Origin: Betaproteobacteria bacterium
GTDB lineage: Bacteria; Pseudomonadota; Gammaproteobacteria; Burkholderiales; Eutrophovitaceae
Reading direction: 5' to 3'
Assembly: GCA_020346185.1 (NCBI GenBank)
Contig: CP070775.1
Location: 2,437,234 to 2,474,010, forward strand
DNA length: 36,777 bases
How positions within the stretch are numbered: position 1 is the first letter of the stretch; each line of letters starts with the position of its first letter. Below, piece after piece: positions 115 through 1,965 of this stretch. A program made the position numbers and the translations under genes. Below the pieces are notes generated by a model. That model did no database searches. It was not told the DNA's origin and was given only the letters and a program-made list of their open reading frames with translations.

Positions 115-999
115 ATGAATCAACAGACCATCGGTTTTATTGGTCTCGGCGTGATGGGTGAGCCGATGTGCCGCAACTTGCGAACTCGCGGTGGCAATCG
201 TGTACTGGCCTTTGATATCAATCCGGAACCACTGAGGCGCCTCAACGAACACGGCGTTGCGACTGCAGGGAGTGCGGCGCAGGTTGTCAGCGAGAGCGAG
301 GTTGTATTCGTTTCGCTGCCGTCAGGCAAGGAACTGGAAGCTCTGGCACGTGGCAAGGATGGTTTGTTGGAACATGCTCGAAGCGGACAAATCATGATTG
401 ACCTGGGCACGTCGCCGGTTGCCTTGACGCGGGACCTGGCAGTCACATTCGGCGCAAAAGGTGTCGCTTATCTCGATGCACCAGTCGCGCGCACCCGTCA
501 GGCTGCCGAAAGTGGCACGCTGGCAGTCATGGTCGGTGGGGCGGCCGAAGTTTTGGAGAAAGTGCGGCCGTTGATGGAATGTTTTGCTTCGGAGATTACC
601 CACTGCGGGGATATCGGCAGTGGTCAGGTGACAAAAATTCTCAACAACATGGTGCTGTTCCAGACAGTGGTCGCCTTATCGGAAGCGCATGCCATTGCAC
701 AAGGTGCAGGCGTCGAGCCGGTGATGCTTTTTGATGCACTGTCCAAAGGCTCGGCGGACAGCTTTGCTTTACGTAATCACGGCATGAAGGCAATCATTCC
801 GCGCAAGTTCCCGGGACGTGCCTTTCCGGTGGAATATGCAATGAAGGATCTCGGCTACGCTCTGGAGTTGGCGAAAGATGGCGATGTTGACGCTGCAGGG
901 GCGCGTAACGTCCGCGATGTGTTCGAGAAAGCGATAGAAGCAGGGGCAGGGGAGCAGTACTTTCCAGTAGTTAGTCGGATACTCAACGGCGAAATCTAA
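115..999 (+). CDS. NAD(P)-dependent beta-hydroxyacid dehydrogenase (3-hydroxyisobutyrate dehydrogenase family)
   Basis: A 294-residue protein, the usual length of the beta-hydroxyacid dehydrogenase family, which oxidises 3-hydroxy acids or reduces the matching semialdehydes with NAD(P). The N-terminus shows the Rossmann motif GFIGLGVMG (residues 7-15). The catalytic lysine is K174, followed by N178, in the family pattern GxxxKxxxN. The usual substrate-binding stretch DAPVSGG is replaced by DAPVARTR (121-128), so the substrate is probably not plain 3-hydroxyisobutyrate. An Arg-Thr pair at this place resembles sulfolactaldehyde reductase YihU, from memory of that sequence. The ATG at 115 follows a G-rich stretch (AATGGGGAA). 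The gene stands alone on + and converges on the leftward biotin operon. The family is certain; the exact substrate is unknown. Confidence 0.88.
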   Translation: MNQQTIGFIGLGVMGEPMCRNLRTRGGNRVLAFDINPEPLRRLNEHGVATAGSAAQVVSESEVVFVSLPSGKELEALARGKDGLLEHARSGQIMIDLGTSPVALTRDLAVTFGAKGVAYLDAPVARTRQAAESGTLAVMVGGAAEVLEKVRPLMECFASEITHCGDIGSGQVTKILNNMVLFQTVVALSEAHAIAQGAGVEPVMLFDALSKGSADSFALRNHGMKAIIPRKFPGRAFPVEYAMKDLGYALELAKDGDVDAAGARNVRDVFEKAIEAGAGEQYFPVVSRILNGEI

Positions 1000-1142
1000 C
1001 AGACTGTTGAAAAACTACTGCGCGACCTTGATCCTGGCTTGCGCGGTGCTCGCAATCCTCATGTACTCTCTCTGTACACTCCGGTTGCTGCGCTCCTGAC
1101 GCACCAGGCTGAAGGCCGCTCGCAACGTTTTTTAACAGCCTG
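1000..1142. repeat. 143-bp near-perfect palindromic intergenic repeat
   Basis: The ends are imperfect inverted repeats: CAGACTGTTGAAAAAC at the left and, read on the other strand, CAGGCTGTTAAAAAAC at the right. The similarity continues inward through most of both arms (for example CCTTGATCCTGG against CCTTCAGCCTGG). The centre is the hairpin TGTAC-N7-GTACA (1062-1078), whose midpoint coincides with the midpoint of the element. It begins one base after the TAA of the dehydrogenase and ends directly before the TAG of the convergent membrane-protein gene. It looks like a MITE- or REP-type dispersed element and could act as a bidirectional terminator. No second copy was seen in the window. Confidence 0.75.
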
Positions 1143-1502
1143 CTAAAGCGGAGGGGTTCTCGGTACCAAAGTCAGGTTGAACAGGATCGCGAGCAGATTC
1201 ACACCGACAATCAACAGCAGGATTGCACGCGAATATTTGAACGACAATGCGGAGAACGCGCCGGCGGCGAAGATCTGCAATGACTTGCCAATCAGTACAC
1301 CGGGGACGATACCCAGGTTCAATGCCAGCCAGCGCACGACCATGTTTCTTTCCACCGCAATGCCGTATTGGGTCATGAACCTGTACGTCGTCACGAAGTC
1401 GAGAAATGCAGTCACCACCAGCATCGACCATAGAAGCCAGTGCTTCCTGAAAGAGTTCAGCAGGTTCGCTTTGAGCGGGATATCCTGGTCGAGTATGCGC
1501 AT
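1143..1502 (-). CDS. Small multi-pass membrane protein (DUF5658-like)
   Basis: A 119-residue protein of unknown function. I chose the ATG at 1502 because GAGGAG lies eight bases upstream; the frame is open further but that part reads as non-coding. After a short polar N-terminus there are about three hydrophobic segments: roughly residues 22-40 (HWLLWSMLVVTAFLDFVTT), 60-80, and 90-112. The arrangement with an acidic residue in the first helix resembles small DUF5658-type proteins, but this is a weak resemblance. It follows the PIN-domain gene by 19 bp on the same strand and is probably the last gene of the bioA-bioF-bioD transcript. Its stop codon touches the palindromic repeat. Confidence 0.7.
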   Translation of the reverse strand: MRILDQDIPLKANLLNSFRKHWLLWSMLVVTAFLDFVTTYRFMTQYGIAVERNMVVRWLALNLGIVPGVLIGKSLQIFAAGAFSALSFKYSRAILLLIVGVNLLAILFNLTLVPRTPPL

Positions 1503-1521
1503 ATTCAGAACTCCTCGGGCT

Positions 1522-1965
1522 TCAACCGCAGTCGATGCTCTCGGACGATGACCACTGGTCGGGTGTTGCGACACGATAGCTGTCGTTGCCGGATGTCTTG
1601 CGGCGGCGTTTCGAAAGCAGAGCATTGTCCTTGGTGATTAACCAGTCGGCTTCGCTGGCGGCGGCGAGCGCCAGGAATTTGATGTCGTCGGGATCAGAGC
1701 ACCAGGGAAGCTGCTCGGCGGGAGCGTAGCGCAGGTCATCAAGAAAAGTGCAGAGACGATCGGCTTTGCTGAGCATTTTGTGTTGAGCCGCTTTGTCCAG
1801 GCCGAAGCGATCGTAACCAAGCACGCATTCCAGCTCATCGCGGCAGGGCGCGTCGATCACAATTTCGATGGTGCGATTGTGTTTAGCCCGTTTCAGCGGG
1901 CTGACGCCCGGATCATCAAAGTGCAGCCAGTCGAGCCAGACATTGGAGTCGAGCACTAGTCGCAT
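1522..1965 (-). CDS. PIN-domain protein, putative ribonuclease
   Basis: A 147-residue PIN-domain protein of the type often annotated as the toxin of a toxin-antitoxin pair. PIN domains are Mg-dependent RNases with a cluster of acidic residues. The sequence shows MRLVLDSNVWLDWL at the N-terminus (D6 is the first conserved acidic residue), an acidic residue in DELECVLGY in the middle, and CSDPDDIKFLALA followed by ADWLITKD near the C-terminus, which together fit an intact active site. The start at 1965 is seven bases after the bioD stop, so translation is probably coupled. No antitoxin-like gene is next to it, so it may be a stand-alone nuclease. Its target is unknown. Confidence 0.75.
   Translation of the reverse strand: MRLVLDSNVWLDWLHFDDPGVSPLKRAKHNRTIEIVIDAPCRDELECVLGYDRFGLDKAAQHKMLSKADRLCTFLDDLRYAPAEQLPWCSDPDDIKFLALAAASEADWLITKDNALLSKRRRKTSGNDSYRVATPDQWSSSESIDCG

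Follow-up and report, generated by a model that had tools for sequence, protein, structure and literature searches.

A 143-bp palindromic element, probably an IS5-type MITE, with an sX9-related hairpin core that probably acts at the 3' ends of genes

The 143-bp palindrome that fills the space between two convergent genes in the window (the whole stretch of 36,777 nucleotides analysed here) is probably a non-autonomous MITE of the IS5 type (YTAR subgroup), which lies in a duplicated YTAR target at a gene end and combines terminal arms for transposition with a conserved core acting as a 3'-end RNA (Table 1). Such an element would have inserted at a YTAR tetramer (CTAA or CTAG) forming the end of the left gene and would have left one stop codon on each side; the duplication of the 4-bp target is observed, while its maker would be an IS5-type transposase. 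The terminal arms would serve transposition, matching different IS5-type insertion sequences in different hosts. The core would be transcribed by read-through from the upstream gene into a large 3'-end hairpin, which may protect or process the transcript, and in Xanthomonas its 3' half would be the RNA catalogued as sX9. That the core works as RNA is the most likely reading of its covariation, placement and orientation.

Table 1. Positions within the window of the palindromic element, its parts and its neighbouring genes
Feature	Position	Strand	Basis
Left neighbour, 3-hydroxyisobutyrate-dehydrogenase-like protein	115..999	+	PF03446, PF14833; NCBIfam matches below cut-offs
Left target-duplication copy, CTAA; holds the left gene's TAA stop (997-999)	996..999	no strand	same tetramer at 1143-1146
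Whole element, 143-bp palindromic mobile element	1000..1142	+ (strand bearing sX9)	copies and fold
Left terminal arm, CAGACTGTTGAAAAAC	1000..1015	+	14/16 complementary to right arm
Hairpin core, common to related elements with other terminal arms	1016..1126	+	alignments
Apical, most conserved part, TGCTCGnAATCCTCAyGTAC-loop-GTACryTCCGGTTnCTGCGCTCC type	1047..1096	+	alignment, coordinates by eye
Rfam RF02228 (sX9) match, 45.5 bits (gathering score 44)	1061..1137	+	
Right terminal arm, complement of CAGGCTGTTAAAAAAC	1127..1142	+	
Right CTAA copy; its bases 1-3 (CTA, 1143-1145) are the right gene's TAG stop on the - strand	1143..1146	no strand	
Right neighbour, 160-aa protein	1143..1625	-	no Pfam or NCBIfam match at E 0.01

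The boundaries proposed in the initial annotation proved right, as did the exact fit between two convergent stops, TAA on the left and TAG on the right. Its wording of a near-perfect palindrome holds for the full-length extent, which is beyond chance, and is too strong for the match itself: with one half aligned to the other, 49 of 75 aligned positions are identical (score 42; mean 26.2 and maximum 35.5 over 500 shuffles), and the terminal ends agree at 14 of 16 positions (CAGACTGTTGAAAAAC versus CAGGCTGTTAAAAAAC). The element is an imperfect, non-random palindrome over its whole length, for which an ungapped repeat finder run on the window reported no inverted repeat. It folds as a single long hairpin with 104 of its 143 bases paired, and the minimum free energy as RNA is -59.0 kcal/mol on the plus strand (z -5.7) and -67.1 kcal/mol on the minus strand (z -7.3), none of 200 shuffles being as stable in either case; the DNA fold gave -28.6 (z -4.1). 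The right neighbour (160 aa) found no match in Pfam and NCBIfam at E 0.01.

The description of the element as mobile, dispersed and MITE-like was borne out by its copies, target-site duplications, IS-like ends and a relative without it. A single genomic copy had been named as the outcome against this idea; instead, 18 blast pieces in the window's own genome (G000; 3.6 Mb, one contig) merge by eye into about 14 places, namely five of 143-158 bp, four long ones (about 180-280 bp) that have an additional module in the middle, and five that are partial. Matches are present in 18 of 61 genomes, G000 included, and a plasmid search with the window copy gave none. At the orthologous site of a genus relative (G002), both genes are present, the element is absent and the spacer gives no clean match; this is a site without the element and not a clean pre-insertion site. 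The corresponding site in G003 bears only a relic, the last bases of the right end, in a spacer that is not identical.

A direct CTAA repeat flanks the window copy. Among 30 loci entered with CAGGCTGTTG-type ends, both ends were located in 27 copies, 10 of which have identical 4-bp flanks and 17 do not, and YTAR stands on at least one side in 22 of the 27, against a background in which YTAR starts at 0.22% of window positions. Each YTAR word (CTAA, TTAG, CTAG, TTAA) holds TAA or TAG on both strands, so that a 4-bp YTAR duplication gives each flank its own stop, and the exact fit between two stops follows from the target sequence itself because that target was duplicated at a gene end. Among the fetched genus copies, 23 were examined for stop adjacency, and a stop codon lies at gap 0 in nine of them, on both sides in L001 and L084. 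The label REP-like was not supported, and the REP family was not adopted for the element, since the element has 143 bp and duplicated targets and REPs are described in a published abstract as 20-40 bp long.

A candidate mobiliser was found in G054, where a 1335-bp insertion sequence with the ends CAGGCTGTTGAAATTCG / CAGGGTGTTGAAATTCG and CTAA on both flanks encodes an IS5 transposase (NCBIfam NF033581, 291 bits, cut-off 140); the only copy of the palindrome detected in that genome is without clear CAGGCTGTTG arms. An IS5 element in G035 has the similar ends CAGGCCGTTGAAAAACC and CAGGCCGCTGAAAAACC with unequal flanks, and in G041 one end of the element's type lies beside a piece of an IS5 gene. 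YTAR is given as a known IS5 target motif in PMC10359306. These matches point to an IS5-type transposase as the enzyme that inserted the window copy. Neither G000 nor G003 was found to have an insertion sequence whose ends are exactly those of the element, and NF033581 scored over its cut-off in 3 of 10 element-bearing genomes, G000 and G003 not among them. The sole inverted CTGTTGAAAAAC pair in G000 is that of an IS1182-family element with a masked right flank; its outer bases differ, and the IS1182-type enzyme was therefore set aside as the mobiliser and kept as a mere possibility. The mobiliser of G000 may have been lost, or an IS1182-type enzyme may act. G036 (Chitinimonas sp., the genome of L233) has an IS5 element with GGGCACCTCGAATAACC ends, and its palindromes have GAACCTGTT ends instead; among the places listed for G036 and G355, no inverted GAACCTGTT pair stood at the distance of an insertion sequence.

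Beyond the genus, a pattern search of public genomes with the apical part returned at least 118 stretches, and 80 loci were fetched. The hosts among the matches listed include Burkholderiales, Gallionellaceae, Thiobacillus, Xanthomonas, Aeromonas, Yersinia, Serratia, Pectobacterium, Citrobacter, Enterobacter, Kluyvera and others, as well as bins labelled Chlorobiaceae (five loci in two bins) and Pedobacter, where the binning may have gone wrong. For alignment, 78 usable named segments were reduced to 60 cluster representatives; L231, L235, L239 and the second copy of L195 (insertions or truncation) were left out, as were L176, L191, L208, L241 and the second copy of L232, and the retained representatives with the window copy, L104 and L109 made 54 aligned copies. 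Among these, the arms share a mean pairwise identity of 31%, the middle 51% and the apical part 83%, the last value being partly built in, since the search pattern that picked out the named loci was taken from there. Of the 16 arm pairs, 13 or more are kept in 31 of the 54 copies and 5 to 12 in the other 23.

The ends change around this core. Two copies in one Gallionella bin have cores that are 97% identical and left arms that are 37% identical; in other within-genome pairs the arms are similar. In Xanthomonas hortorum, the arms (GAGCGGCTAACAAAAC) are matched exactly over 16 bp at both ends of a 1693-bp element in the same genome, whose protein is of IS5 type (NF033581, 342.5 bits). Twelve Xanthomonas copies of 139-142 bp were read by eye; their 3-bp flanks are identical in four, and TNA stands at the right flank in 10 and at the left in four. 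Further end types, also read by eye, are GAACCTGTT, GGGCACCTC, CATAGCGACATAAATC, GAGCCTATCCCA and GAGAGGCTGAGAACTTTT. We infer an exchange of ends rather than slow co-divergence.

The structure-forming character proposed in the initial annotation was supported, as was conservation of the fold, by pairing and covariation above shuffles. RNAalifold on the 54-copy alignment gave 40 pairs, 29 of them with changes on both sides; 87.8% of the 2160 cells are paired, against 69.2% when shuffled and at most 44.0% when slid, and the covariation score is 0.482 against 0.161, with none of 500 shuffles as high. Column 65, for instance, which is free in the search pattern, pairs with column 100 in all 54 copies (G-C in 28, C-G in 13, A-U in 13). 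Covariation alone is no proof of RNA function, because one alignment served both to derive the structure and to score it, and template switching can keep palindromes complementary. Across the alignment there is hardly any variation in the apical sequence or in the mismatched internal loop, and the constancy of a mismatched loop argues for recognition. Two further approaches to the functional strand were abandoned: folding energy gave the opposite of what was expected, the antisense core being on average 2.1 kcal/mol more stable and the sense core more stable in 20 of 54 copies, and an argument from wobble pairs depends on two positions; once these are set aside, 9 G-U and 19 A-C cells are left in the core.

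The placement of copies was counted among 83 matches, 70 of which entered the neighbour count and 74 the orientation count. Copies had been expected mostly between convergent genes, and this arrangement is enriched, with 25 convergent, 33 tandem and 12 divergent neighbour pairs against 39, 110 and 48 in 197 background gaps (convergent excess, Fisher p 0.009; divergent not significant); adjacency to stop codons is the stronger pattern. A facing stop lies within 100 nt in 53 of the 70 copies and within 15 bp in 38, counts that stand without a distance background. Among 74 copies, a stop adjoins the sX9-sense side only in 30, the other side only in 8, both in 15 and neither in 21 (p 0.0005); with the groEL and hydroxyacyl-CoA-dehydrogenase contexts counted once each the bias is 26 versus 8 (p 0.003), these counts depending on a crude gene caller that misplaced some genes. 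This mostly one-sided adjacency suggests a 3'-end RNA element. The genes upstream of copies include groEL (in two Rhodoferax genomes and one Sideroxydans genome), a YbaB-like gene, a thiolase and fatty-acid oxidation genes. The three copies behind groEL are without clear terminal arms, and they lie inside the 3' untranslated stretch, because a terminator-like hairpin comes after the element in each case.

The only Rfam match in the window is to sX9, a model to which the element belongs by score. The likeness is that its right half exceeds the gathering score; the difference is that sX9 was modelled as a gene of 76 positions, whereas here it makes up one half of a mobile palindrome of 143 bp. 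The RNA begins in the loop of the hairpin, near the A of AUGUAC. When 299 genomes of the phylum were searched under strict filtering, with the model scored on 15 candidates in each, six genomes had E up to 0.001 and two were over the cut-off, and none of three X. hortorum relatives (the insertion sequence, the 447-bp element L293 and the 65-bp element L296) matched the model. IS5-family MITEs share with the element its short length and lack of a transposase gene, inverted ends (14/16), YTAR duplication (CTAA on both sides here), dispersed copies with filled and empty sites (about 14 places; G002 without the element) and ends like those of IS5-type elements of related bacteria; they differ in that here conservation of the interior reaches far outside a single IS lineage and the ends change. 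The apical core is also present in 5214 of 5426 E. coli genomes, at a median of two places, none of which covers 80% of the query; these places may correspond to the RSA repeat, a name for which a literature search gave nothing useful. The YPAL element of Yersinia was reportedly found by De Gregorio in 2006 to lie just after stop codons. YPAL, or RU-2, is likewise described as mobile, palindromic and miniature, with a length of about 168 bp (PMC2759123, PMC2229807). The printed RU-2 sequence matches the window copy weakly (score 27, shuffle mean 16.9, none of 300 as high) and two other copies no better than chance (55 and 86 of 300 shuffles as high), and YPAL was not taken up as the family of the element, the match being weak, short and confined to the window copy. 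A precedent for small RNAs from MITEs is given by the QMITE-derived small RNAs of Coxiella (PMC10969869), which are likened here by description only, their sequence and host being different.

It is possible, and on balance rather doubtful, that the element is a purely selfish MITE whose core has no host function, with stop adjacency reflecting the YTAR target plus the loss of insertions within genes, and complementary arms reflecting template switching. YTAR targets do predict stop adjacency, the recent copies L001 and L084 abut stops on both strands, and in genus copies alone the one-sided bias (6 versus 1) is not significant (p 0.125). Template switching would, however, erase mismatches, yet the mismatched internal loop is kept nearly unchanged along with the apical sequence; the 30 versus 8 orientation bias among 74 copies and the armless copies after groEL also speak against it. 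Alternatively, sX9 could be a dedicated sRNA gene spread by transposition and acting in trans on mRNAs. sX9 was discovered in X. campestris pv. vesicatoria and ranks among the 20 most prevalent bacterial sRNAs (PMC9029176). The gathering score is reached by the window copy and by all 14 Xanthomonas loci given that have the 139-142-bp element (47.6 to 96.9; 13 distinct copies, L181 and L298 being the same), but among the 15 G000 loci given only four reach it and 11 fall below. A scan of positions 850-1300 of the window found no promoter-like site, and a structure-only hairpin core offers little single-stranded sequence, which makes a trans-acting gene unlikely.

The initial annotation had read the palindrome as a double terminator for the two convergent genes. 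A bidirectional intrinsic terminator would suit the over-representation of convergent neighbours and a hairpin that is long and stable on either strand, with a run of A in the left arm and a run of T in the right. The geometry is against it: the T-run lies within the stem and does not directly follow a GC-rich stem, and no terminator-like site was found at 850-1300. A gene stop lies on the sense side of 45 copies, and 44 of these were scanned (L190, with a doubtful left gene, was removed); one has a terminator-like site inside the element, and eight have a separate terminator-like hairpin downstream, as do 22 among 440 shuffled stretches. Termination by a stem of such length is still conceivable and would be invisible to the scans used; we regard this role as improbable. 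Far less probable still is that a recombinase uses the element, as structured single-strand DNA, for its target or origin (attC-like or IS200/IS605-like); the strong DNA fold and an IS110-type transposase gene inside GAGCGG arms in X. hortorum might point that way, but 4-bp duplications and IS5-type ends indicate a DDE transposase.

If the reading as an IS5-type MITE with an RNA core at gene ends is true, sX9 would be half of a transposable element, and its copy counts would track transposition and not an RNA gene. The YTAR rule would likewise mean that a transposon can land at gene ends, sparing both convergent genes, and internal loops nearly invariant across such distances would lend themselves readily to the search for a nuclease or a binding protein. 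The class of IS5-type MITEs is already known; exchangeable ends, the link to sX9 and the stop-codon logic appear to be new; a literature search that covered few subscription journals returned neither a link between sX9 and a mobile element nor an account of exchanged ends. A wider picture can be put forward tentatively, at somewhat less than an even chance: the RNA hairpin core might be exchangeable cargo across beta- and gammaproteobacteria (perhaps Chlorobiaceae), mobilised by different IS5-type transposases through terminal repeats of host insertion sequences that it acquires, tending to settle behind stops and domesticated in places at the 3' ends of housekeeping genes (groEL, ybaB-like, fatty-acid oxidation) as a strand-specific element, sX9 being the one part so far named.

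Several variant forms were seen along the way. L051 (G000:C1:1254500-1255600) is a derivative of about 45 bp that consists of only the element's two ends and lies directly behind a gene. The long forms L006, L008, L010, L014, L090-L093, L096 and L097 carry a middle module of about 100 bp, in which there are additional hairpins such as CCGCCTTCGGCGG, and also a 20-bp insert of the GGTTCnnATCnnnACGG type that is repeated. Nested elements, with an inverted-repeat insert in the apical loop region, are present in L095 (G003) at 1542-1933 and L122 (G050) at 1364-1607, with arms beginning AGAACCTATCTCATGATTG and CCCAGATTATCCATTAGG. In L137 (G035; 1019-1245 and 2592), a copy of the palindrome that is extended by additional internal sequence adjoins an IS5-type gene whose far end bears TTAGCAGGCCGCTGAAAAACC. 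G036 contains 164 sites of GAACCTGTTYRNGAYC (at most one mismatch) against four of the reversed pattern, which suggests about 80 elements. In X. hortorum, L293 and L294 (447-452 bp) and L296 (65 bp) are other miniature elements with GAGCGGCTAACAAAAC ends and TAA on both sides, and at L288 (G354:C1:3812119-3813732) an ORF that by eye resembles an IS110-family transposase lies between GAGCGGCTAACAAAAC arms and may have been inserted into a palindromic element.
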